NCBI GenBank assembly: GCA_023257195.1
Contig: JALRCU010000041.1
Location: forward strand, 62,001-126,000
Reading direction: 5' to 3'
DNA length: 64,000 bases
Origin: Holophagaceae bacterium
GTDB lineage: Bacteria > Acidobacteriota > Holophagae > Holophagales > Holophagaceae
The notes beneath the pieces are model-generated. The model did no database searches. It was not told the DNA's origin and saw only the letters and a program-made list of their open reading frames with translations. Position numbers and translations under genes: made by a program. Position 1 is the stretch's first letter. Each line of letters opens with the position of its first letter. Positions 22,491 to 35,632 of this stretch are shown piece by piece.

Positions 22491-22862
22491 CTAAGCTTGG
22501 GTTTCTTTTTTGGCTTTAGTAACTTTGGAAGGGGCTTTGGTCTCACTTGTGATGGAAGCGCCTGCCTTACCGGAAGTTTTACGTTCGATAGTCTTTTTCT
22601 TTTTGGGTGTCGAAATCACTTTGGGTGCTTCCACGACTGCTTTGGGGGCTTTAGCAACAACGGGCTTTGGAGCATATTTACGATTAAATTTATCGACCCG
22701 ACCTTCGGTATCCATTAGTCGCTGTTTCCCTGTCCAGAAAGGATGACAAGCGGAACACACCTCTACGCGTAATTCATTCTTAACAGATCGCGTCATGAAT
22801 TCATTACCGCATTGGCAATGAACTTTAACGATGTGCATTTCTGGATGAATAGCTTCTTTCAT
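22491..22862 (-). CDS. rpmE: Ribosomal protein L31 with a long basic C-terminal tail
   Basis: Residues 1-67 are a zinc-binding L31 (Cys in HCQCGNE and [13 protein letters not shown], and the VDKFNRKY ending). About 55 further residues, rich in Lys, Ala, Thr and Val, follow; ordinary L31 stops near residue 70. The tail has low complexity like histone-H1 or ribosomal protein tails and is probably disordered and rRNA-binding. AGGAG precedes the ATG by seven bases. It heads the rpmE-prfA-hrcA-grpE-dnaJ series. Confidence 0.93.
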
Positions 22863-22934
22863 GGGGAGACTCCTGTATGGCCGACCGTAAACCCACGTGA
22901 ACGATGCTCACGGCTTGCCCATTGTGGACTCTCT

Positions 22935-22963
22935 AGAATACGTGGAAATCGCTGATTCATCAA
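22935..22963 (-). promoter_or_regulatory. Candidate sigma70-type promoter for rpmE-prfA
   Basis: On the minus strand TTGATG (22963-22958) and TATTCT (22940-22935) are separated by exactly 17 bases, each matching four of six consensus positions. The element is about 70 bases ahead of the rpmE ATG and after the stop of the FtsX permease gene. Prediction only. Confidence 0.35.
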
Positions 22964-22991
22964 GGATGAAAGACCAATGAGGCCTCTCCAA

Positions 22992-24221
22992 TTAGGCTTT
23001 CATGGCTTCTGTGAGGGGGATATTCGACGCTCGCCATGCTGGTAGCAGGCCCCCGAGTATGCCCATACCCACACTAAAAAAAAGTCCTTGGGCGAGAAGA
23101 CGAGGGGTAATAGTAAATGCAAAACTGATGTCGCTAAAGGTGTCAAAACTTGTCGTCCCTGTTTGAATTCCGTCCGCTAGAAAACTTAGCAAAGATCCCC
23201 CAAGTCCCCCGAGAACACAGAGCGCGATCGCTTCCCACTGAAAACTCGCTAAAATTTCCCGTCGCCGATAGCCCAAGGCTCGCAGCGTACCAATTTCTTT
23301 TGTTCGACTTGCTACGGAAGCATACATAGTATTCATCGCTGAAAACATGGCGCCGATCGAAAGAATAACGGTAATAAGATTTCCGATAATACGAATGGGG
23401 TCTCCGGCCTTGGTTAATTCTTTAAAATAGGAACGCTCAGGCACGGCTTCCAATTTGAGTCGCTTCTCTTCCTCCATCTGAAGCGTAAAGGGTCCCAGGT
23501 CATCTTCCGAGCGTAATCGAACTAAAACAGTTGAATACGTTTCTCGTTTAAACGCCTGCATTACGTCGTTCACATCGCTCCATATTTCAGAATCAAAAGA
23601 CGAACCAGCGGCATCATAAGTTCCAACAATATCCCATTGGCGACCACCCATTTTAAAACTACGACCCACGACTAACTCAGGAAATCTTAGTTGCATCTTT
23701 ACCGGAACCGTGACTTCAGAAAGCCCTGGCTGAAACCAGCGCCCCGAGACTAATTTAACCTGGGGACGCATGCTTCTACCCGTGACCTCCATGCCTCGTA
23801 CTGTGATATTGGAACCCACGCCGTCCGATTTATTGAAAAGCTTAATGACTATCACTTCAGCTGATGCAATGGGGTTCATATTGTCTTTCGCTACGAGTGG
23901 ATTAGATTTGATGATCCTGGCTTGGTCCCGGGTGATGGATGAATTGAGTTCAAAACGAGAACTAGGCCTCATGACTAGGGCTTGATTCGGTAAGCCTGAA
24001 GTTACAAACGCTTTAGAAATTCCCTGAGCTAACGATAAAACTACAATAAAAATAGCGACCACTAAAGAGATGGCAGATGCGGTGGTTAACGTCGACGATT
24101 TTCGCCCCCATAAAGATCGAAGATTATAGACAAAGGGAAGCGGAAATTTAATCGCAGCATAAATGAGCCAGGCGAGATAAGCAGCAAATAATACGAGAAT
24201 AAATCCCACAAAAAGAACCAT
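22992..24221 (-). CDS. ABC transporter permease, MacB/FtsX family
   Basis: A 409-residue permease with one N-terminal helix, a large extracytoplasmic MacB-type periplasmic core domain (about 60-270) and three C-terminal helices; SRTKEIGTLRALGYRRREI is the FtsX-family coupling segment. An in-frame GTG three bases upstream (24224, GTGATG) is an alternative start. It overlaps the preceding permease stop. With its partner permease, ATPase and membrane-fusion protein it should form a mechanotransmission-type exporter for a lipid, peptide or antibiotic; the substrate is not visible. Confidence 0.88.
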   Translation of the reverse strand: MVLFVGFILVLFAAYLAWLIYAAIKFPLPFVYNLRSLWGRKSSTLTTASAISLVVAIFIVVLSLAQGISKAFVTSGLPNQALVMRPSSRFELNSSITRDQARIIKSNPLVAKDNMNPIASAEVIVIKLFNKSDGVGSNITVRGMEVTGRSMRPQVKLVSGRWFQPGLSEVTVPVKMQLRFPELVVGRSFKMGGRQWDIVGTYDAAGSSFDSEIWSDVNDVMQAFKRETYSTVLVRLRSEDDLGPFTLQMEEEKRLKLEAVPERSYFKELTKAGDPIRIIGNLITVILSIGAMFSAMNTMYASVASRTKEIGTLRALGYRRREILASFQWEAIALCVLGGLGGSLLSFLADGIQTGTTSFDTFSDISFAFTITPRLLAQGLFFSVGMGILGGLLPAWRASNIPLTEAMKA

Positions 24222-25378
24222 CACAGTGCCCTGAGACCTTCCACGATAGATCTACGGGTAGCAGCAAGAGCCGGAATGATTGTTGAAATGAACCCAATAA
24301 TGAGGGCCATCCCCATGCATAACAAAATAGTCTCGTTGGCTAAGCGAAAATCCTGAAGGAAAATGAGGGCGCTTCCAAGAATTTCTCTTAAAATTTTGGC
24401 GACTAGACTTGCTAGGCCTATACCCAGGGCTCCGCCCAAGGTAACCAATAAGAGTCCTTCGGCCATCAGAAGGAAAAGAACACGTGCTCGACTAAAACCC
24501 ATAGCCCGGAGAACGGCAATCTCTGTGGTTCGCTCTTTAATAGCCATCGACATCGTTCCAACCGTCACAATGGTAATCGCAATCAGGACGGCGATGGTCA
24601 CACCGTGAATAATGGCTCCGATATTTCCTAACATTTTAACAAAAGTGAGATAGAAAGCATTTTCAGCCTCACTCATGGTTTCAACCGGTGAATTGGCAAA
24701 ATGGGTATCAATTCGATTGGCTACACGAGGAATGTCATCCGATGTTTTTGTCTTAATCCAGAAAGCTCCGGTCTTACCCTTCATGAATTGGACCCCTTCT
24801 TCAAGGAGTTTGTAGTGAAAATAAAGCGTATTCTCTTCGGAAGCCATGCGACCTTTGAAGATGCCGCGAATAGTGAGCTGGGGACTCATCGGAAAAATAG
24901 TTCCGGTTAAAGGAATGGTGTCTCCAACCTTCCACCCGTATTTATCAGCTAGAATTTGACCAACGATGCATCCCTTTCTGTCTCGTTGATACTCTTTGAT
25001 TTCAGCTTCAGTGAGTCCAGAAATACGGTCAGAGAACACTTGAAACATCGTGGTCTCATCATTGGCAAAATTAGCAAAGAAATTCTTGGGGTCTTGGTAA
25101 TAGCCCCCAAACCACTGGGAATTTGCAACGGCTAAGACTTCCGGTTGTTGGCGCAAATATTCTCCATAACTGATCGGTAGAAATTGAGTCAATCCACTTT
25201 TATGCCTGACCACAAATCGATTACCCTCTGTCGGCTTGTTGGAAACCGCATCTAACGTTGCCAATAGAGATTGAAGAATCGTAATAAGAAAAACCGAGAG
25301 GATGAGTGTACATAAAATCAGAAACGTTCGACGTTTTGAACGCATCAGGGACTTCCATACTAAATGAAGAAATTTCAT
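24221..25378 (-). CDS. ABC transporter permease, MacB/FtsX family (second subunit)
   Basis: A 385-residue paralogous permease with an N-terminal helix (RRTFLILCTLILSVFLITIL), a periplasmic domain, then three helices around KERTTEIAVLRAMGFSRARV. Having two different permeases suggests a heterodimer, unlike the MacB homodimer. Its ATG overlaps the ATPase stop (ATGA) and its stop overlaps the next permease start, so translation is probably coupled. Confidence 0.88.
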   Translation of the reverse strand: MKFLHLVWKSLMRSKRRTFLILCTLILSVFLITILQSLLATLDAVSNKPTEGNRFVVRHKSGLTQFLPISYGEYLRQQPEVLAVANSQWFGGYYQDPKNFFANFANDETTMFQVFSDRISGLTEAEIKEYQRDRKGCIVGQILADKYGWKVGDTIPLTGTIFPMSPQLTIRGIFKGRMASEENTLYFHYKLLEEGVQFMKGKTGAFWIKTKTSDDIPRVANRIDTHFANSPVETMSEAENAFYLTFVKMLGNIGAIIHGVTIAVLIAITIVTVGTMSMAIKERTTEIAVLRAMGFSRARVLFLLMAEGLLLVTLGGALGIGLASLVAKILREILGSALIFLQDFRLANETILLCMGMALIIGFISTIIPALAATRRSIVEGLRAL

Positions 25379-26079
25379 CGATTTACTTCCACGGTTTTAT
25401 CGAGGATACCTTTTTCAAGATGAACCTGATGCCGAGCACAATTAGCTGCTTTGGGATCATGAGTGACGATGAGAATAGTTTTACCGAATTCTTCATTGAG
25501 CCTTTGCATCATTTCCAAAATTTCATCGGCATTCTTTGCGTCAAGCGCACCGGTTGGCTCATCGGCAACGAGAACTTTGGGGTTTCCGACAATGGCGCGC
25601 GCAATAGCAACTCGCTGCTCTTGTCCTCCGCTTAGTTGCCTAGGATAATTTTCGCGTCGATCCATCAAATTTACCAATGAGAGAACTTCCTCAACTTTTT
25701 CCTTGCGCTGAGCTCGAGTTAACGAGGTTAAAAGTAACGGTAATTCAATATTTTCAAAGGCATTCAGGACGGGGATCAAATTATAATTCTGAAATATAAA
25801 ACCGATATTCTCGTTTCTCCAAGAGGCCAGTTCGTCGTCATTGAGTTGATTTAAATTGGATCCACATACCTCAAGCAAACCACCCGTGGGTCGATCAATA
25901 CCCGCAATGAGGTTGAGCAAGGTTGTTTTTCCTGAGCCGCTAGGCCCCATCAAGGCATAGAAGCCTCCCGCGGGAATATCCAGGTCCAGTCCTTGGAGCA
26001 CAGGAATTTCAAGGGTCTCTCGGAAATAACTTTTCGCCAGACTCTGAATGTGAATGATCGGCGCAGTTGGTTGGCTCAT
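25375..26079 (-). CDS. ABC transporter ATPase, LolD/MacB-like
   Basis: A 234-residue stand-alone ATPase: Walker [17 protein letters not shown]-loop [12 protein letters not shown], signature [15 protein letters not shown], Walker [13 protein letters not shown] and His switch in ILIVTHD. The signature has Gln-Glu-Gln where Gln-Gln-Gln is common. It lies between the membrane-fusion protein gene (2-base gap) and the first permease (ATGA overlap), which defines the transporter unit. Confidence 0.93.
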
Positions 26080-26081
26080 GG

Positions 26082-27191
26082 CTACAATCGCTTGGGGGTG
26101 ACTTTTTGCCCTGGCTTTAGATTATCGGGGGGAGCAATAATGAGTTGCGATGAGGGAATTAATCCTGAAATTTCGTAACCTAATGGATTTTCAGCATTGA
26201 GAACTAAGATTGATTTTTTTGTGGCACGACCATCCTCTACTACCCATGTAAAACTTTCGGACGTTTGAGGATCTCGGTAAACCTGCTCACGCCCCAACAC
26301 TAGAACATCTTCTTGGTAAGGAGCTCCTAAAAAAGTTACCTTGGCTCCCATGTCGGGAACCAAAAGTGGGTCCTTTTGATCTAAGGCTACGCGAACGATG
26401 ATGGTAGCTTTCTGACGATTGGAGCTTGGATAAATGGCTCGCAAATGGCCTTTTAAAATCGAACTATCTTTCTTCTTTTCTAGCGCATCTACTCGAACTT
26501 CAGTAGCCATTCCTGGAGTGAGCTTCCCAACTCCTGATTCACTTACTTCTACTTCAACTTCCAAGGTATCAAAGTCGGCCATCACTAAAATGGCGTTGAT
26601 GGCATTCGCTCCACCGGCACTTCCGGGAGCGACAGTTTCACCAACCTCGGAGAGTTTTTGCGTCACGATTCCTGTGAAAGGGGCTTTTAAAGTCATGCTT
26701 TCTAACAGGGCGTCCTGATAGGCTAGTTGGGCTTTCAGGGTATTCAGCTGACTTAAAAGTCGCTCGGTGTTTGCTGGACTCTCAAAACCTGACTTCTGCA
26801 GCGTAGCGCTTCGATCATAATCCTGTTGGGCTTGGTGAACCTGGGAAAAAATAGCATTTCGGGAGGCCTCAATATCGGGTGATTCTAATTTAGCTAGGAC
26901 CTGGCCCTTCGATACTAAACTGCCCTCTTGAACACCGAGATAAGCGACGCGACCTAAAACCTTGCTGGAGAGGGTTGCACGGGTCCTAGCTACGATATAA
27001 CCGGACGCGGTCACCAAGGGGGTTTGAGTCCCTTTTTTAAAAAGCGTCGGGGTATTCGTACTCACAGAAAGTGCGGCTCCTTCAGACAACATCCAAGCGA
27101 TGAGACCGACGAGCGATATTGACCCCAAGACGATCCATCCGAGAGGCAATCTTTTTTTAAAACGAGTTGGAGAACTTGGACTTGTGGGCAT
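26082..27191 (-). CDS. Periplasmic membrane-fusion (HlyD/MacA-like) protein
   Basis: A 369-residue adaptor with one N-terminal anchor helix (LGWIVLGSISLVGLIAWML), a biotinyl-lipoyl hairpin domain (LSSKVLGRVAYLGVQEGSLV and MTLKAPFTGIVTQKLSEVGE), a coiled-coil hairpin between them, and a beta-barrel. It would connect the permeases to an outer-membrane channel; no TolC gene is adjacent. It is the first gene of the four-gene exporter operon and follows an 84-base spacer. Confidence 0.9.
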   Translation of the reverse strand: MPTSPSSPTRFKKRLPLGWIVLGSISLVGLIAWMLSEGAALSVSTNTPTLFKKGTQTPLVTASGYIVARTRATLSSKVLGRVAYLGVQEGSLVSKGQVLAKLESPDIEASRNAIFSQVHQAQQDYDRSATLQKSGFESPANTERLLSQLNTLKAQLAYQDALLESMTLKAPFTGIVTQKLSEVGETVAPGSAGGANAINAILVMADFDTLEVEVEVSESGVGKLTPGMATEVRVDALEKKKDSSILKGHLRAIYPSSNRQKATIIVRVALDQKDPLLVPDMGAKVTFLGAPYQEDVLVLGREQVYRDPQTSESFTWVVEDGRATKKSILVLNAENPLGYEISGLIPSSQLIIAPPDNLKPGQKVTPKRL

Positions 27192-27275
27192 CTGAAGAAC
27201 CTGCTTTCTTATTTATTATGAGTTAAAAAGCACACTGAGAGAAACCGATCTCGTAATGTCTATAAAATATAATTT

Positions 27276-28310
27276 TTATGCAGGGCGCTGAAATCGGTAA
27301 TGAGACACGATCCACTCATTACCATCGCTGTATTTCCATAACTCCGCGCAAGACATAAAAAATATTCTCCATCGTGCTAACTGAAGTTCCGCTTCAGGAA
27401 GACTCATGGAAGTCGCAAATAAATTTTTTAAACTATCGAAGTTAGCATCGAGATTTTGAAGCCATGCCTCTGAAGTATAGGCATAGTGGAGGCCGCCAAC
27501 ACGCCAATGATCTTCGAGTTTGAGTGAATCTTGGAATCTCAGGAGATAGTGATCACTTGGCATCATTCCACCGGTAAAGAAATATTGGGCCATCCAATCC
27601 GTCTCATCCTTTACTTCGTAGGGATAGGTCAAGTCCCGATGGGTAAAGATATGTACAAATAATTTACCTTGCGGCTTAAGCCACTTGGAAATCTTAGCTA
27701 ACAGCGATCGATGATTTCGCATATGTTCAAACATTTCGACAGAAACGACGCGATCAAATGTTTCTTCGATCTCAAAGGCGTTCATGTCTTGAGTGATAAC
27801 CGTAAGATTGGAGAGACCTCTTTGAAGGGCTTGGCCTTCGATATAGAGACGCTGATCTTTTGAATTAGAGACTGCCGTAATTTGTGACTTTGGAAAATGT
27901 TCAGCCATCCATAGAGAAAGAGAGCCCCACCCACAACCCAACTCAAGAATCTTTTGTCCATTCGCTAAATCTGCGCGCTCGCAAGTTCGCTGTAGCATCG
28001 CTCGTTCCGCCGATTCTAGACTTTGCTGGGGACTATCAAACCAACAGCATGAATATTTGAGATGAGGCCCCAGCACTTTTTGGAAGAAGGCAGGGGGCAC
28101 CTCATAATGCTGATCATTTGCCTCTTGCGTATTGATGGCAATGGGTCCTTGAGACCAATCAACGAGGCGTGCTTGAAAGCGAGTATGAACAGCCTCCACT
28201 CCGCCGGCATACTCGTCTTTAAGACGAAGGCGGATCAGCCTCTTGATTTGAGAACGAATTAACCCATCGGGTATCCAACCTCGGCGAAGTAATTGATCGG
28301 TCAAGTTCAT
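27276..28310 (-). CDS. SAM-dependent methyltransferase, short cyclopropane-fatty-acid-synthase type
   Basis: A 344-residue Cfa-family methyltransferase lacking the usual N-terminal lipid domain. HYEVPPAFFQKVLGPHLKYSCCWF, the SAM motif ILELGCGWGSLSLWMAE and the SVEMFEHM motif identify the family. It is more like the coclaurine N-methyltransferase-like branch than classical Cfa. An upstream extension of the frame reaches 28529, but the ATG at 28310 overlaps the DUF1295 stop (ATGA) and begins a normal N-terminus. Last gene of the lipid operon; the substrate is probably a membrane acyl chain. Confidence 0.88.
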   Translation of the reverse strand: MNLTDQLLRRGWIPDGLIRSQIKRLIRLRLKDEYAGGVEAVHTRFQARLVDWSQGPIAINTQEANDQHYEVPPAFFQKVLGPHLKYSCCWFDSPQQSLESAERAMLQRTCERADLANGQKILELGCGWGSLSLWMAEHFPKSQITAVSNSKDQRLYIEGQALQRGLSNLTVITQDMNAFEIEETFDRVVSVEMFEHMRNHRSLLAKISKWLKPQGKLFVHIFTHRDLTYPYEVKDETDWMAQYFFTGGMMPSDHYLLRFQDSLKLEDHWRVGGLHYAYTSEAWLQNLDANFDSLKNLFATSMSLPEAELQLARWRIFFMSCAELWKYSDGNEWIVSHYRFQRPA

Positions 28311-29098
28311 GAAGAGATCCCTTTCTTTGGAAACCAAGGAATAAACATAGAAGTCTCTTCTTGGTAGCGTCGATAGTCCTCTGGTCGGCTTCGCAAACTT
28401 TGAGCTTCCGTCGCGGGAATTCCCGTCACGCGAAGAAGGAAATAAAGCATGAGAGCCGGGCAGATTAAAGACCAATAACCTCCGGGAGATGGAATGGCCA
28501 TCAGGGCAAAAGCCACCCAGATCAACCATTCAAAAAAATAATTGGGGTGCCTCGAGTAGCGCCACAGCCCTTGTCGGCAGGTTTGACCCTTGTGATCTAT
28601 ATTTGATTTAAAATGGGCCAATTGCCGATCCGCCACGGCCTCGCCTACCATCGAGACCACCCAAACGCTCAGGGCTAACCAGTGAGTCCACTGAAGATCT
28701 TCTCGGGAATCTTGGACCATCACAAGGAAAGGAATGGAAAGGATGACATCTAATAGTGCTTGAACCTGAAAGAAAAGAAAAAATTTGAGGGGTAAATTCG
28801 TTTTCCAGTTCCGCTTAATCTCACCGTATCGTCCATCTTCTTTTTCATTTTTTACACGATTAAAAAGGTACGTCCCGAGACGTGCGCTCCAGAGACCCCC
28901 CATGATTCCCGCCAAGAGTCGTGAAGTGAGGCTTCCGCTACCAAAGCAGGCATAAAAAACTACGATGAGCCCTAAGCCATATGCCCAGCCCACATCGACC
29001 CAAGCGGCATTGTCGGTTGCTCGATAATACAGCCAGAGTCCAAACTGCAAGCTGGAAACTATCAGGGTTCCATAAAGAATCAGTTCGAATGTGTTCAT
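28307..29098 (-). CDS. DUF1295 membrane protein (steroid 5-alpha-reductase-like)
   Basis: A 263-residue polytopic membrane protein. The C-terminal half has GLWRYSRHPNYFFEWLIWVA, the NADPH-binding hallmark shared with steroid 5-alpha reductases and isoprenylcysteine methyltransferases, and the protein ends near PEDYRRYQEETSMFIPWFPK, typical of DUF1295. It is likely a reductase acting on a lipid double bond; that is inference. The ATG at 29098 overlaps the DUF2062 stop. Longer readings of the frame only shadow that gene. Confidence 0.88.
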   Translation of the reverse strand: MNTFELILYGTLIVSSLQFGLWLYYRATDNAAWVDVGWAYGLGLIVVFYACFGSGSLTSRLLAGIMGGLWSARLGTYLFNRVKNEKEDGRYGEIKRNWKTNLPLKFFLFFQVQALLDVILSIPFLVMVQDSREDLQWTHWLALSVWVVSMVGEAVADRQLAHFKSNIDHKGQTCRQGLWRYSRHPNYFFEWLIWVAFALMAIPSPGGYWSLICPALMLYFLLRVTGIPATEAQSLRSRPEDYRRYQEETSMFIPWFPKKGISS

Positions 29099-29568
29099 GG
29101 CGTCGTTTCCATGGAGTGTTTGATGCGCTGAAAAAGAAAGCTGAGGATCAGGCCAAGAATAATGACCAAAGGGATGGCTACCAACACCCAAACAACTCCT
29201 GCGTGCCAAAAACTAGTCCAATACGTTTCGAGCGTAGTAAAAGGCGAGAATGATCCAGATTTAATTTCCTGAATGATTATAGGAACAACATGCGGTTGAT
29301 CAAATAATTTTTCACCGGCATAAATGAAGAAGAAAAGAAAGGGGACTTGTAGGGGAGATAAAGCCAGATGAGCAATCTGAATTGCAGGATGATTAAGCCG
29401 AAAAAGGAAGCCAGCCGCAATACAAACAAGGGTCGAAGTACCAACGAGAGGACTGGTACCAATAGCAAGACCGGCTGCCACACTCCATGCCAATTTACTT
29501 GGCGTGGTCCCCTGTTTTAAAAGATTCACAAGGGGATCTATGACCTTTTTTTTCAGCCACTTATTCAT
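29095..29568 (-). CDS. DUF2062 membrane protein
   Basis: A 157-residue protein with an amphipathic start, then LVNLLKQGTTPSKLAWSVAAGLAIGTSPLVGT, split here as LLKQGTTPSKLAWSVAAG plus LAIGTSPLVG, the hallmark of DUF2062, and three or four helices. Its function is unknown; family members often sit beside glycosyltransferase or lipid genes. It overlaps both neighbours by ATGA. Confidence 0.85.
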   Translation of the reverse strand: MNKWLKKKVIDPLVNLLKQGTTPSKLAWSVAAGLAIGTSPLVGTSTLVCIAAGFLFRLNHPAIQIAHLALSPLQVPFLFFFIYAGEKLFDQPHVVPIIIQEIKSGSFSPFTTLETYWTSFWHAGVVWVLVAIPLVIILGLILSFLFQRIKHSMETTP

Positions 29569-29888
29569 GAAGATTGCCGACGAAAAAGGTCTGGGAGGCT
29601 CTGGGCGTTATGAATCGCTATCAAAACATAAATCGCCATCGCAATATTGCCTAGAAGAAGAATTGCAACTAACCAACTTATGCTTGAAATGGACCAACCT
29701 TCGCGATAAAGAATCCAAAGCCAAAAGAAGACAAAAGCAAAATAGGTATCGTATAACGTTGCAACCCACCAGGGTTCGTCAGGAAAATACTTAATTACAT
29801 CAAAAATAGATTGCTGAAGCGAGGCCCAAGTCGTCACGATAAGCATCGCAATTAAAACTGCCCACGCCCATAATTTAAGATATTTCAT
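29565..29888 (-). CDS. DUF1475-like membrane protein
   Basis: A 107-residue protein with three hydrophobic helices and the stretch WWVATLYDTYFAFVFFWLWI, which fits DUF1475, a family repeatedly found beside Cfa/DUF1365 genes. A TTG four codons upstream is an alternative start. The ATG at 29888 overlaps the Cfa stop by ATGA. Its role is unknown; the context suggests a membrane component of lipid modification. Confidence 0.75.
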   Translation of the reverse strand: MKYLKLWAWAVLIAMLIVTTWASLQQSIFDVIKYFPDEPWWVATLYDTYFAFVFFWLWILYREGWSISSISWLVAILLLGNIAMAIYVLIAIHNAQSLPDLFRRQSS

Positions 29889-31105
29889 GATCGACTCCAA
29901 GGTTCATGATTCACCCCTATTGCTTCAGGATGACCTAGTAGTAATTGTGAATCACCAATATACCTCTCTGCAAATGCTCCTGAACAATAAGCTAAATACC
30001 AATCCCACATTCGGATAAACTCATCGCTGTACCCTAAGGCGCGCACCCTATCAATCTCAGTCCAGAATCTTTGACGCCAAGCATCTAAGGTTCGATGATA
30101 GTGAGCACCAATATCCTCGTGATGCAAGATCCGGAGCGAACCTGTTCGACCGAGTGATTTAAATATCTCAGATAAAGAGGCTAGTTCTGCACCAGGAAAG
30201 ATATATTGCTGAATCCAATCAGTACCTTTGATATAGGTTTCCCACTGAGTTTCATTCATGGTGATGGTCTGGATTAAAGCCAAGCCACCCGTTTCCAAAT
30301 GTCGACTAATACAACTAAAGTAATCATCGTAATGTTTGAGGCCTACGGCCTCAAACATTTCAATCGAGACAATCTTGCTGTAGATCCCTTTTAATAATCG
30401 ATAGTCTTCAAAGCGAATATCGATGAGATGGCTTACCCCTTCCCTTTCAAATAGCGACTGTGCGTATTTAAATTGTTGTTGACTAATCGTCGTAGTCGTA
30501 ACGCGACATCCAACATGTTTTGCGGCATAAAGGGCGAAGCCCCCCCAGCCTGTGCCAATTTCGAGGATATGATCGCGAGAATTCAAAGAGAGTTTTTCAG
30601 CAATACGAGAAAACTTTTGAATTTGCGCAACCTCGAGGGAGTCACTCGATGACCGATAATATGCACAACTGTAAGCTAGGGTGGGGTCGAGCCACAACTG
30701 ATAGAAATCATTGCCTAAGTCATAGTGATGAGCAATATTGGATCGAGAACCCTGCAGATGATTGTCTCTAGAGAGATGGCGCAATCGATTGATCTTTTTT
30801 CCTAACCAGGACAAGAGGCCCCGATCTTTTGTCAGAGGGGTCATACCGCGAACTACGAGGCGTACCAAAGCGACGGGATCCGGTGAAGACCAATAGCCTT
30901 TCATATAGGCAAGGCCAAATCCCACTTCACCCTGAAATAGGCCGAGCCGATAAGTTCGTGCATCATGGATGATAACTATGGCCTTTAGAGAACTTTGAGG
31001 ATCCCCTAAAAAATACGTTTGATCGGCTGTTCGAAGTTCAAGGAACCCGCTCTCAATTTTTGAGAGCAGTCGAACGGTGAAATAACGAAGGAGCCGATTA
31101 ATCAT
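29885..31105 (-). CDS. Cyclopropane-fatty-acyl-phospholipid synthase-type methyltransferase
   Basis: A 406-residue Cfa-family enzyme with the N-terminal lipid-binding domain (GFGLAYMKGYWSSPDPVALV) and the catalytic domain: NIAHHYDLGNDFYQLWLDP, SAM motif LEIGTGWGGFALYAAK, SIEMFEAVGLKHYDDYF and the late WDWYLAYCSGAFAERYIGD. It transfers a methyl or methylene group from SAM to unsaturated acyl chains of phospholipids. This is the fuller of two Cfa paralogues in this operon. The neighbouring amine oxidase and DUF1365 genes are typical partners of this subgroup. Confidence 0.92.
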   Translation of the reverse strand: MINRLLRYFTVRLLSKIESGFLELRTADQTYFLGDPQSSLKAIVIIHDARTYRLGLFQGEVGFGLAYMKGYWSSPDPVALVRLVVRGMTPLTKDRGLLSWLGKKINRLRHLSRDNHLQGSRSNIAHHYDLGNDFYQLWLDPTLAYSCAYYRSSSDSLEVAQIQKFSRIAEKLSLNSRDHILEIGTGWGGFALYAAKHVGCRVTTTTISQQQFKYAQSLFEREGVSHLIDIRFEDYRLLKGIYSKIVSIEMFEAVGLKHYDDYFSCISRHLETGGLALIQTITMNETQWETYIKGTDWIQQYIFPGAELASLSEIFKSLGRTGSLRILHHEDIGAHYHRTLDAWRQRFWTEIDRVRALGYSDEFIRMWDWYLAYCSGAFAERYIGDSQLLLGHPEAIGVNHEPWSRS

Positions 31106-31866
31106 TTTTGGGATTCCATTTTTTTAGGATGCGTTTGAACGGGAACTCCCTTGAGCCACAAGCGAAAAGCCTGCCAATGTATGCCTATTATCACCCTTAG
31201 TGTCATCAAGGGAAACGCTAATAACGTTTGTCGAATCTGTTGGGCGTCCCATGGGTGGTGGACTAAATTAAGATCGACATCAAAAAAGCAATGATCTTGT
31301 TGGAATTCCTGGATATGGATCCCGAGGCGTTGGGCTGGGTCGTCAAAGGACCAGAGATACCGACAGTCCATCGGAATGAAGGGGGAAACGTGAAAAACCT
31401 TGGGAACTTCAAAGGTTCGACGAGGACCCTCCTGACGCATAGGAAATTCGCTCATCCAATAAAGATGACGCTCACCCCATGGCGTATTGTTTACTTCGGC
31501 AAGGATGTCCTTTAGTTCTCCTGCATCATTATAGAAATAAAAATAAGAAACAGGATTAAAGCAATACCCGAAATACCGCAAATGGGTTAAGAGGAAGATT
31601 TTTCCAGATCCAAGATCTATCCCTCGAGATTGCGCTTCAAGTTTGAGTCTTTCACGAAGAGGTAAGTGGGGGCTTCCTAAGTGATCCCGGTCATCATAGC
31701 TAGCCCAATTGAAACGATTATGGCTGACCCAGGGCGAAGCCTGCATGAGTTCTGATAAACGATCGATATCCAAGAAGGCCATAAAAATGGGATAAGTAAA
31801 TTCATGAGACTTAGGAGTAAATCGTCGATGACGAAGAGATCCACGATAAAGGCCTGAGGCTACCAT
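31102..31866 (-). CDS. DUF1365 protein
   Basis: A 254-residue protein with LYRGSLRHRRFTPKSHEFTY at the N-terminus and FLLTHLRYFGYCFNPVSYFY in the centre, both diagnostic of DUF1365. The biochemical function is not established; the family almost always neighbours an FAD amine oxidase and a Cfa enzyme. It overlaps the amine oxidase end by seven bases and the Cfa start by ATGA. Confidence 0.92.
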   Translation of the reverse strand: MVASGLYRGSLRHRRFTPKSHEFTYPIFMAFLDIDRLSELMQASPWVSHNRFNWASYDDRDHLGSPHLPLRERLKLEAQSRGIDLGSGKIFLLTHLRYFGYCFNPVSYFYFYNDAGELKDILAEVNNTPWGERHLYWMSEFPMRQEGPRRTFEVPKVFHVSPFIPMDCRYLWSFDDPAQRLGIHIQEFQQDHCFFDVDLNLVHHPWDAQQIRQTLLAFPLMTLRVIIGIHWQAFRLWLKGVPVQTHPKKMESQK

Positions 31867-33122
31867 TTAGCCCCCAAGGCACGAGCGACACGAAGCCCTG
31901 AGACAAGACCATCCTCATGGAAACCGTAGTTCCAATATGCTCCTGCAAAATGCGTACGACGATCCACGCTACTAATTTCTGACCATCGATGCTGGGCCGC
32001 GATACTTCGCTCATTGTATTTTGGATGAACGTAATCCATACGTCGCTCAATGAGGGCTGGATCAATATGGCTTTCGGCATTCAGCGTCACGAAGAGATCT
32101 TCTCGGGTCGCTAGGGGCTGTAAACGATTCATGTGGTAGGTGAGTCTCGCTGGACCCCCCTCGGGATTGACCGGGTAGTTCCAAGAGGCCCAACTGCGTC
32201 GTTGGGGTGGCAATAAATTTCGATCTCGATGAAGAATAGTAGGGTTTTGACTCACCTCGAAAGCAGAAAGAATCTCGCGTTCTCGATCTGAAGGATCACT
32301 AAGTAAATTGAGCGCGTCGGGAGCAGGACAAGCCAATACTACATGATCAAAAGATTGAAGTGTTCCATCCGCAAAAAATAGATCGACTCGATCGACCTGC
32401 CGTTGGATACGGATTGGTGTTCGATTGAGAAAGATTTGATTCTTGAAGGGCTCGACCAAAGGGGCAATATAACGACTCGTTCCTCCCCGTATGGTTCGCC
32501 AGCCATATTGAGTAGTCATTCCAAGCATTCCATGATTTTGAAAAAAACGAAGCAGGGTCAATATGGGGAAATCTTTCATGTGCTGTCGAGACATGGACCA
32601 AACCGACGATGCCATCGGATAAATATAGTTTTCGGAAAACGTGTCATCGAGATCATGTTGGTTTAAAAAATCCTGAAGGGTGAGGGCTGCTTTCTGGGAA
32701 TCATTTTCATAAAGAAAATGATTCCCAACTTTATTGAATCGATGTATCTGGTATAAAAAACGATAAAAGCGAGGATTCCAAATATTTTTACGCTCAGTGA
32801 ATACTCCATTAAGGCCGCGAGAACACCAAGAAAGACCATCGGATACCCCGCGTCGATCCACAGCAAAACTCATATTCGAATCACATGTTTCGATATTTAA
32901 TTCCTCAAAGAGTCGAACCAAGTTTGGATAATTTGCTTTATTGTGAACGATAAATCCCGTATCGACTGCGACGCGGGTTTCTCCAATCGATAAATCATGC
33001 GTGTGGGTATGACCCCCAAGCCTGGTTTGTTTTTCAAAAAGGCTAATATCATAAGTCCGACACAAAAAACGAGCGGCACCTAAGCCTGAGATACCCGATC
33101 CAATAATCGCCACCCGCGCCAT
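31860..33122 (-). CDS. FAD-dependent amine-oxidase-fold protein
   Basis: A 420-residue flavoprotein. The dinucleotide motif AIIGSGISGLGAARFL, followed by LFEKQTRLGGHTHTH, binds FAD; the C-terminus carries HFAGAYWNYGFHEDG. It resembles the NAD/FAD-binding partner of DUF1365 and Cfa genes seen in many bacteria, including the singlet-oxygen regulon of Rhodobacter. It probably desaturates or isomerises a lipid chain. It lies 13 bases after the desaturase and heads the run of overlapping genes. Confidence 0.9.
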   Translation of the reverse strand: MARVAIIGSGISGLGAARFLCRTYDISLFEKQTRLGGHTHTHDLSIGETRVAVDTGFIVHNKANYPNLVRLFEELNIETCDSNMSFAVDRRGVSDGLSWCSRGLNGVFTERKNIWNPRFYRFLYQIHRFNKVGNHFLYENDSQKAALTLQDFLNQHDLDDTFSENYIYPMASSVWSMSRQHMKDFPILTLLRFFQNHGMLGMTTQYGWRTIRGGTSRYIAPLVEPFKNQIFLNRTPIRIQRQVDRVDLFFADGTLQSFDHVVLACPAPDALNLLSDPSDREREILSAFEVSQNPTILHRDRNLLPPQRRSWASWNYPVNPEGGPARLTYHMNRLQPLATREDLFVTLNAESHIDPALIERRMDYVHPKYNERSIAAQHRWSEISSVDRRTHFAGAYWNYGFHEDGLVSGLRVARALGAKW

Positions 33123-33135
33123 AAAGATCGCTATC

Positions 33136-34017
33136 TCAAGAGAAATCAGATGAGATGGGAGCGTCTTTATGAACCATCAGAAACTCGGAGGGCCAAGGAC
33201 GAATGTCTTTCACAATAGACAACCAACTGAACACTTTTAAGATATAAAAGGTAGGATCCCATTCCCACCAACGAATACCTTGGCGACAACCATTTTGGAA
33301 ATGGTGGTGATTGTTATGCCAACCTTCTCCCAGGGTCAAAAAAGCTAAAATGAAATTATTTCGACTTCCGTCGCCGGTTGAGAATCTCACCGAACCCCAA
33401 AGATGACATAGACTATTAATCGTAAACGTTCCATGAAAAAGAAGAACGGTTGGAAGGATGAAGAACCAAAGTAAGGTGACCCAAGGGCCGAGACCCGTTA
33501 AGTAACCGAGAGAAAAAGAGACCACCCCCAACAGTACGGGGCAGACCCAATGATAAGTGTTTAACCAACGAAGTTCAGGATACTTCTCAAAGTCGTGTAT
33601 ATTTTTGGAATCGTATGCGTCATGAGTATCTGAAAGAATCCAGCCCACGTGGGCGTACCAGAACCCTCGAGTAAGAGGGCTGTGAATATCCTGATCTTGA
33701 TCCGAGAATCGATGATGATTACGGTGATGACTGGCCCACCATAAAATACCTTTTTGGGCTGAGGTCTGCGCGATAAAAGCTAGCAAGAACTGATTAAATC
33801 GATTTAATTTATAAGTGCGATGTGAGAAATAACGATGGTAGCCTGCTGTAATTGCAAACATACGAATGACGTAACTAATAACGAGCCCTGCTAGAAGAGG
33901 CCAAGAAAAGGGGGTCCAAAAAACCCCTAGGCATACCAGATGAAGAATGAGAAAACTGACCGAAAGAGGGGTCCAACTGGGCTTTGAATCAGAAGCAGCT
34001 ACAGGTTGTGAATTCAT
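33136..34017 (-). CDS. Membrane fatty-acid (acyl-CoA delta-9 type) desaturase
   Basis: A 293-residue di-iron membrane desaturase. All three histidine clusters are present: HRYFSH, HRNHH and HNNHHH. Four membrane helices surround them. It inserts a double bond into long acyl chains using oxygen and an electron donor. As the first gene of the lipid operon it would supply the unsaturated chain acted on by the downstream methyltransferases. The ATG at 34017 is the natural start. Confidence 0.94.
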   Translation of the reverse strand: MNSQPVAASDSKPSWTPLSVSFLILHLVCLGVFWTPFSWPLLAGLVISYVIRMFAITAGYHRYFSHRTYKLNRFNQFLLAFIAQTSAQKGILWWASHHRNHHRFSDQDQDIHSPLTRGFWYAHVGWILSDTHDAYDSKNIHDFEKYPELRWLNTYHWVCPVLLGVVSFSLGYLTGLGPWVTLLWFFILPTVLLFHGTFTINSLCHLWGSVRFSTGDGSRNNFILAFLTLGEGWHNNHHHFQNGCRQGIRWWEWDPTFYILKVFSWLSIVKDIRPWPSEFLMVHKDAPISSDFS

Positions 34018-34131
34018 TCTCTAAGCATAACAAGTGGGCCCGGGTTCCTGAAGGTTCTTATGTAATGTTCGATGACCAATACATGATTTAGGAATCTCTC
34101 ATTTGGCTCTTCATACCCCCCTATCAATAAA

Positions 34132-34257
34132 TCATTGATTTTTCAATAAGCTCTTAAATATTTGTGCCCAGTAGAGCGCTGCAGCGATCAGGGAGAGCAA
34201 AAGAACGCTCAGCGCGATCACAATCATCTTTTTTTCATCTTGAGGGCTCATTGACAT
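34132..34257 (-). CDS. Small single-helix membrane protein (41 residues), unknown
   Basis: The 325-base gap between the desaturase and hisS (34018-34342) holds one plausible short gene: ATG 34257 to TGA 34132. The peptide has a charged lead (MSMSPQDEKK), one hydrophobic helix of about 20 residues (MIVIALSVLLLSLIAAALYW) and a basic tail (IFKSLLKNQ), an orderly positive-inside layout. A modest TGGA lies eight bases upstream. I recognise no family. It could be cotranscribed with the desaturase. I see nothing else in the gap besides presumed promoters. Confidence 0.5.
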   Translation of the reverse strand: MSMSPQDEKKMIVIALSVLLLSLIAAALYWAQIFKSLLKNQ

Positions 34258-34384
34258 AACGTTATTCCAGCCTCTAGGATACTAAATTTTTCGCTACCCA
34301 CTTAACGCTCAAGCCCCTTATTCATTCAATAATTTTAGGTTTATGCTTACACTATCAGTAACACGCTGCGGGCGGCTCTCCACT

Positions 34385-35632
34385 ATGACTCAATCTGTAA
34401 AAGGTATGCGAGATCTTTGGGGTACTGAATTAGCCTATTTTCAGTTTATCGAGAGAGCGTGCCACCAAATCATGGAGTCGCACGGTTACCAAGAAATTCG
34501 TACACCCATTGTTGAATCAACTGATCTTTTTTCTAGGGGTGTAGGCTCAACCACGGACATTGTGAATAAAGAAATGTATACCTTTCGAGATCGATCTGAC
34601 CGAAGTCTCACGCTTAGGCCTGAAAATACCGCCTCTGTAGTCAGGGCGATCATTCAAAATAAACTCCTCGAAAGCAATGACCCCTTACATCTTTTTTACA
34701 TCGGTCCGATGTTCCGATACGAGAGAATGCAAGCGGGTCGCTATCGACAGTTTTGGCAGATCGGAGCTGAATCCATCGGTATAGCCTCTCCTGAAAGCGA
34801 AGTTGAAAGCATCATAATGCTTTTTGACTTTCTTACATCACTAGGATTAGGCGATCTATCCCTCTCAATTAATTCAGTTGGTTTTCCCGAGGAGCGTGCT
34901 TCTTTTTATGTTGCGCTGAAAGCGTTTGTGAAGGATCGAGAACAGGCATTCTGCGAAGATTGTCGACGCCGCATCGAAGATAATCCTCTTCGCGTTCTCG
35001 ACTGCAAAGTTTCCTCCTGCCAAACGGCTCTAACAGGGCACCCTGAAATACTAAATTTTTTGAGCAATGAGTCGCAGTCGCATCATGAAAAATTTCAAAA
35101 GTGTCTTCAGTCCTCCCGCATCCCTTTTTTGTCTAACCCTAAAATGGTAAGAGGATTGGACTACTATACTCGGACTACTTTTGAAGTACTCTCTTCCGAT
35201 TTAGGAGCCCAATCGGCACTTCTGGGTGGAGGTCGTTATGATCGGCTCATTCAGGACCTAGGCGGTCCCCCAACGCCCGCATTCGGTTGGGCTATTGGCT
35301 TAGACCGACTCGTCTCTTTGGTCATGAAAAAGAATATTTCTTTACCATCGAAGCCCCGCATTCTTTTGATCCCCGTAGGTGAAACAATGATCAACGACGC
35401 CTTCGAATTAGCTCGATCGCTTTGGGCCGACGGTCATTCGGTTGAACTTGAAACGCGAGGAGTCCCTCTAAAAAAATCTCTCTCCTCCGCTAACCGTAAA
35501 GGTCACTCTCACGCATTCATCTTGGGCGAGAGTGAAAAAGCCAAGGGTATTATTACGGTTAAATTTTTAATGACTGGTAAACAAGAGGAATGGCTACTGA
35601 GTGAAATTTCGTCGCGCATTCTTCATATTTAA
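34385..35632 (+). CDS. hisS: Histidyl-tRNA synthetase
   Basis: A 415-residue class II synthetase charging tRNA-His. Motif 2 reads FYIGPMFRYERMQAGRYRQFWQ, split as FYIGPMFRYERMQ and AGRYRQFWQIG; the HisA motifs are VRGLDYYTRTTFEV and LLGGGRYDRL, and AFGWAIGLDRL is motif 3. The C-terminal anticodon domain follows. The frame opens at ATG 34343, but a start at 34385 (MTQSVKGMRDLWG) matches the usual family N-terminus; the longer start has AGG four bases upstream and remains possible. Confidence 0.95.
   Translation: MTQSVKGMRDLWGTELAYFQFIERACHQIMESHGYQEIRTPIVESTDLFSRGVGSTTDIVNKEMYTFRDRSDRSLTLRPENTASVVRAIIQNKLLESNDPLHLFYIGPMFRYERMQAGRYRQFWQIGAESIGIASPESEVESIIMLFDFLTSLGLGDLSLSINSVGFPEERASFYVALKAFVKDREQAFCEDCRRRIEDNPLRVLDCKVSSCQTALTGHPEILNFLSNESQSHHEKFQKCLQSSRIPFLSNPKMVRGLDYYTRTTFEVLSSDLGAQSALLGGGRYDRLIQDLGGPPTPAFGWAIGLDRLVSLVMKKNISLPSKPRILLIPVGETMINDAFELARSLWADGHSVELETRGVPLKKSLSSANRKGHSHAFILGESEKAKGIITVKFLMTGKQEEWLLSEISSRILHI

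Follow-up and report, generated by a model that had tools for sequence, protein, structure and literature searches.

The core of the furan fatty acid pathway is already known from other bacteria. In the accessible part of the report on Rhodobacter sphaeroides and Rhodopseudomonas palustris (Lemke 2020, PMC7380195), UfaM converts cis-vaccenate to 11-methyl-12-trans-18:1, UfaD yields a 10,12-diene, UfaO, the role assigned there to DUF1365, adds an oxygen derived from O2 to form a monomethyl furan, and FufM places a second methyl group onto the furan. UfaM from Halomonas, when expressed in Escherichia coli, produced an 11-methyl intermediate, according to the portion of PMC12089945 available. Here, an eight-gene operon is described from a Holophagaceae bacterium of the phylum Acidobacteriota (assembly GCA_023257195.1). 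It lies in a 64,000-nucleotide stretch of contig JALRCU010000041.1 (positions 62,001 to 126,000), referred to below as the window, and its gene content and order suggest that its product is very probably dimethyl furan fatty acids, formed on phospholipid chains.

Operon content and proposed pathway

The operon covers 6.7 kb of the minus strand (27276-34017). All eight of its genes are intact: they open with ATG, close with a stop codon and are not interrupted by internal stops. The desaturase gene at its head (33136..34017) is separated by a 13-base gap from a gene for an FAD amine oxidase (31860..33122; PF01593, E 2.5e-23), which adjoins a DUF1365 gene (31102..31866; PF07103, E 1.2e-79). A full-length Cfa-type methyltransferase (29885..31105; PF02353) comes next, followed by DUF1475 (29565..29888, starting at 29888), DUF2062 (29095..29568) and DUF1295 (28307..29098) proteins and by a short Cfa-like methyltransferase (27276..28310, starting at 28310; PF02353). 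From the amine oxidase onward, successive genes overlap by 7, 4, 4, 4, 4 and 4 bases. A first-pass annotation, made from the letters of the window, had placed these eight genes on one strand with overlaps of four to seven bases, and the measurements agree with it on both counts.

All four enzymes of the known pathway are matched by family in this single operon, with one gene each. Profiles and gene order, the basis for the family names used here, point to the FAD oxidase as the UfaD homologue, the DUF1365 protein as the UfaO homologue, the full-length Cfa as the UfaM homologue and the short Cfa as the FufM homologue. The first-pass annotation had described the gene set correctly but had missed its identity with the Ufa/FufM set. 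The evidence supports the defined multi-step lipid product that it expected; among the methyl-branched, cyclopropane and furan chains that it named, the furan is selected, and methyl-branched chains would be intermediates. The chemical order that it gave (desaturate, oxidise, methylate, reduce) departs from the published pathway, which runs from desaturation through methylation, dehydrogenation and oxygenation to a second methylation.

By this pathway, the desaturase would introduce a cis double bond into a saturated chain, and the UfaM homologue would use S-adenosylmethionine to add a methyl group at the double bond, which would shift in the process. Dehydrogenation by the UfaD homologue would then give a methylated conjugated diene, into which the UfaO homologue would insert an oxygen from O2, closing the monomethyl furan, before the FufM homologue adds a second methyl group to the ring. 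All steps after desaturation are carried over by analogy from the tested Rhodobacter and Rhodopseudomonas enzymes. The O2 chemistry is plausible, since a COX1 terminal-oxidase gene is present in the source genome. The resulting furan lipid would probably serve as a membrane antioxidant, with the DUF1295, DUF1475 and DUF2062 proteins as conserved membrane partners.

Substrate supply and the UfaD and UfaO homologues

The head desaturase (PF00487) resembles stearoyl-CoA desaturases, with the histidine boxes HRYFSH, HRNHH and HNNHH visible and acyl-CoA desaturase 1 (4ymk, E 1e-24) as its best match in the Protein Data Bank (PDB). No second PF00487 gene was found in the source genome, nor any PF03405 desaturase, and the single gene of the FabA/FabZ family there is FabZ-like and lies beside an lpxA-like gene (both names are from translations). 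Together these observations suggest that most unsaturated chains probably come from the operon desaturase. Should this enzyme act as a delta-9 desaturase, the furans formed would be 7D5 (from 16:1) or 7D7 (from 18:1), and not the known 9D5.

The FAD amine-oxidase-like dehydrogenase carries a GSGISG nucleotide motif, and UfaD homologues are linked to ufaO and ufaM in other loci. The DUF1365 protein, the candidate furan-forming oxygenase, is predicted to be a beta-barrel (predicted local distance difference test score, pLDDT, 95.6). Spirocyclases, nitrobindin and fatty-acid-binding-like barrels match the model at Z scores of at most 7.5, which is background level, and none is claimed as its fold family. 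At four loci from four other genomes of the phylum, a single open frame encodes UfaO and UfaM as a fusion.

The two Cfa-type methyltransferases

The two methyltransferases belong to different branches. The nearest solved structure to the long enzyme is Cfa itself, while the best PDB match of the short one is coclaurine N-methyltransferase (6gkv, E 8e-76, versus 4e-30 for the E. coli-type Cfa). In a tree of 49 rows, the UfaM clade (25 rows, support 100/99) and the FufM clade (15 rows, support 100/100) both stand apart from the nine Cfas that lack ufa linkage. At the bicarbonate site (C139, E239, H266, I268 and Y317 in E. coli), the full-length enzyme keeps the cysteine, glutamate and isoleucine and has glutamine in place of His266 and arginine in place of Tyr317. 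Glutamine occupies the His266 position in all 81 ufa-linked rows compared.

Several points weigh against the furan assignment. Glutamine is also found at the His266 position in two of the nine Cfas without ufa linkage, and cotton GhCPS1, which has it as well, makes cyclopropane fatty acids (PMC3132707); these two cases rule out the substitution as proof of a UfaM. Cells of E. coli that expressed the Halomonas ufaM contained cyclic acids, in the part of PMC12089945 available. The strain table of Lemke 2020 lists a deletion of RPA0923, the gene beside fufM, for which the accessible text reports no phenotype (PMC7380195). Finally, two weak PF03060 matches in the source genome represent a possible other route to unsaturated chains.

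Some of these points would fit an operon in which the full-length Cfa produces ordinary cyclopropane chains, with modifying or regulatory roles for the other genes, comparable to the plant synthases with a fused FAD oxidase. The enzyme does belong to the CMAS family, and cotton GhCPS1/2, which produce cyclopropane acids, combine a fused oxidase domain with glutamine or isoleucine at the His266 position (PMC3132707). Set against this, the ufa-linked Cfas form a clade separate from the unlinked ones, the operon enzyme has arginine at the Tyr317 position, and both a DUF1365 protein and a FufM-type enzyme are present, neither of which, to our knowledge, has a role in cyclopropane synthesis. A cyclopropane operon thus appears very unlikely, and furan synthesis is the preferred explanation.

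DUF1295 and the other membrane-type proteins

The AlphaFold2 model of DUF1295 (pLDDT 96.6) can be superimposed on the delta-14 sterol reductase 4quv (Z 15.8, rmsd 4.0 over 235), on the steroid 5-alpha-reductases 7c83 (Z 15.2, rmsd 3.9 over 209) and 7bw1 (Z 14.3, rmsd 3.9 over 202) and, at a lower score, on the methyltransferase ICMT (5v7p; Z 12.3, rmsd 3.6 over 165). A Foldseek search with the same model gave no match under E 0.001. The sterol/steroid reductase fold fits a reductase and is no proof of one, a fold by itself showing no function; the most likely role of DUF1295 is that of an NAD(P)H-dependent reductase acting on a pathway lipid.

In R. sphaeroides, as in a wheat germ system, FufM alone was sufficient, according to PMC7380195; the second methylation therefore does not simply depend on DUF1295, unless those hosts provide this protein. 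A role solely as a FufM helper is also weakened by one genome of the phylum sample described below (G001), which contains no fufM and in which DUF1295 overlaps ufaD by 4 bases and sits with ufaD, ufaO and ufaM. Furans act as scavengers. On oxidation, furan fatty acids give dioxoenes, as stated in the part of PMC12595405 available. It may be that the operon also repairs furan phospholipids, with DUF1295, whose fold is shared by enzymes that reduce conjugated C=C bonds, reducing the dioxoene (an ene-dione) to a saturated 1,4-diketone that would then close to the furan in a Paal-Knorr reaction. This proposal fits the occurrence of DUF1295 with ufaD-ufaO-ufaM even where fufM is missing (G001), and is nonetheless considered unlikely; were it correct, the furan lipid would be a recyclable antioxidant.

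The small membrane-type DUF1475 protein has a weak Pfam match (24.3 bits, against a cut-off of 22.3), with relatives in similar loci (26 aligned sequences), and the membrane-type DUF2062 protein is matched by PF09835 (E 6.7e-14). Both are conserved neighbours, DUF1475 occurring in 22 and DUF2062 in 15 of 80 fufM loci from named genomes.

Distribution and gene order

Co-occurrence was examined in 199 genomes of the phylum, with fufM called at a minimum of 49% identity; the next match drops from 355 to 115 bits, and a split fragment in one genome was left out. By this measure, fufM occurs in 18 genomes, DUF1365 (ufaO) in 24 and both in 17 (Fisher p 3.6e-18), and DUF1295, at 150 bits or more, in all 18 fufM genomes (p 1.7e-13) and in 22 of the 24 with DUF1365, although these tests treat genomes as independent and related genomes are not. 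DUF1295 also occurs outside the pathway: of the 46 genomes among the 199 that have it at that threshold, 24 lack ufaO. In 14 of the 18 fufM genomes, DUF1295 and fufM share a strand and are no more than 1 kb apart. DUF1295 is located away from fufM in three others, and in the last (G132) both genes are at contig ends.

These counts bear on whether the pathway might instead end at monomethyl furans or methylated dienes, with the short Cfa acting on another substrate such as an amine. Such a role would be in line with the N-methyltransferases that are its best solved relatives and with G132, where fufM is present without a ufaO match. The other 17 fufM genomes all have ufaO, however, and a tested FufM methylates the furan, as given in the available part of PMC7380195; Arabidopsis LIME1 is 37.9% identical to that enzyme (PMC10940516). 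The same paper gives Q6NBA4 as the accession of FufM, and Q3J4I7, Q3IYV7 and Q3IYV8 for UfaM, UfaD and UfaO of R. sphaeroides. By annotation, LIME1 and a Chlamydomonas counterpart belong to the same short branch. There is accordingly only a slim chance that the short enzyme serves another substrate, and a dimethyl furan remains the favoured end product.

A wider scan of named genomes retained 80 fufM loci out of 486. In 63 of these, DUF1295 is encoded on the fufM strand no more than 400 bp away, and in 68 no more than 1500 bp away; in the remaining 12, some of which are at contig ends, it was not found. All four pathway genes (ufaD, ufaO, ufaM and fufM) fall within the fetched stretch in 52 of the 80. 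The order desaturase-ufaD-ufaO-ufaM-DUF1295-fufM, with or without DUF1475 and DUF2062 before DUF1295, is found in 25, and the full eight-gene order of the window in four, all Verrucomicrobiota by title. Since the same genes recur in the same order in other phyla, the arrangement is not a matter of chance. The fufM-DUF1295 pair itself recurs in Bacteroidota, Verrucomicrobiota, Acidobacteriota, Planctomycetota and Pseudomonadota, and dimethyl furan lipids may therefore be more common than was implied in the original paper.

Genomic context

The operon is flanked on one side by a MacA/MacB-type export operon and L31-like and release-factor-like genes, and on the other by a divergent hisS-like gene; the L31-like, release-factor-like and hisS-like names are read from translations. 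These flanks do not travel with the cluster. When nine flank proteins were compared with 121 cluster loci, five matched only a locus from the same family (L105) and two matched none, while the ABC ATPase matched seven loci and the peptidase two. L105 shares its flanks (L31-like, MacA/MacB-type and hisS-like) with window positions 22491-35632, and the cluster is thus probably old in the family and not a recent arrival. Other families seen near the 121 loci include DUF2878 (19), extracytoplasmic function (ECF) sigma factors (12), lipocalins (10) and SnoaL-like proteins (8).

The source assembly comprises 56 contigs and 1.195 Mb at 97% completeness, compared with 3.0-4.5 Mb for relatives from the same family in the phylum sample. 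The genome is strongly reduced, yet it retains the furan operon.

Regulation and singlet oxygen

The first-pass annotation had tied related clusters to singlet-oxygen responses and had noted that no sigma or anti-sigma gene is next to this one. The link is borne out by annotated plasmids, in three of which (Mesorhizobium, Shinella and Pseudoalteromonas) out of five an ECF sigma factor and ChrR adjoin the cluster; within the stretch shown, neither adjoins the Acinetobacter and Cupriavidus clusters. The missing regulator also holds up: the TIGR02451 profile for ChrR, which matched a Caulobacter control, had no match in the source genome, and no sigma70 region 2 gene lies inside the window. The genome has three such genes, the nearest sigma-like gene being on the same contig at a distance of about 65 kb. 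The third (C10:161172) has no adjoining ChrR; this small ECF-like sigma gene precedes a gene whose product has a single hydrophobic stretch and may be its anti-sigma factor.

The region between the desaturase and hisS-like genes (34018..34342) is the probable site of the operon start signals. It shows no match to the RpoE/ChrR-type consensus when read by eye (no promoter scan was made). Control of the operon by ChrR was rejected, given a genome in which no ChrR was found and a TAAGA before the desaturase with no matching upstream box by the same reading. A small open reading frame of 41 codons with one hydrophobic stretch, also read by eye, occupies 34132-34257 on the minus strand of this interval.

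In Chlamydomonas, genes for DUF1365, DUF1295 and two Cfa-type proteins require SAK1 for induction by singlet oxygen, and one of these Cfa-type genes is also annotated as a coclaurine N-methyltransferase, as given in the part of PMC4067076 available. The ChrR locus on a Mesorhizobium terrae plasmid contains Cfa, DUF1365, DUF1295, DUF2177, fasciclin and heme-binding genes, and the SAK1-dependent singlet-oxygen genes of Chlamydomonas in the same text include genes of these kinds. Since the alga co-induces DUF1295 with DUF1365 and the two Cfa-type genes, the role of DUF1295 could be tested in this model organism.

Comparison with known systems

In the open-licence literature, as far as it was searched, the one-operon layout and the DUF1295, DUF1475 and DUF2062 partners are undescribed. 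An apparently complete route from a saturated chain to a dimethyl furan is packed into a single operon, which offers a ready construct for producing furan lipids in a laboratory host, and three conserved candidate partners are added to the pathway.

All four enzyme families of the Rhodobacter and Rhodopseudomonas pathway are present in the operon, and the genes are more dispersed in those species. By the gene numbers in the accessible part of PMC7380195, ufaM (RSP2144) is apart from ufaD-ufaO (RSP1091-1090) in R. sphaeroides, and fufM (RPA0924) is apart from the other three genes (RPA2569-2571) in R. palustris; here all four are in one operon. The Holophagaceae operon, in whose genome no ChrR was found, adds the desaturase, DUF1295, DUF1475 and DUF2062 to the four Ufa/FufM genes. 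In Halomonas sp. YLGW01, ufaD, ufaO and ufaM are consecutive, according to the available portion of PMC12089945, which does not describe fufM or the partner genes. The ufa genes are also together on the Mesorhizobium, Shinella and Pseudoalteromonas plasmids, where, unlike here, a sigma factor and ChrR adjoin them, and the Mesorhizobium and Shinella clusters include the DUF1295-fufM pair as well. A further plasmid cluster is that of Acinetobacter pYUSHP14-1, a plasmid of 188 kb; fufM was matched in seven Acinetobacter plasmid records. Located near a photolyase and a two-component system, and without DUF1475 and DUF2062 in between, this cluster runs desaturase-ufaD-ufaO-ufaM-DUF1295-fufM, the same order as in the operon described here.

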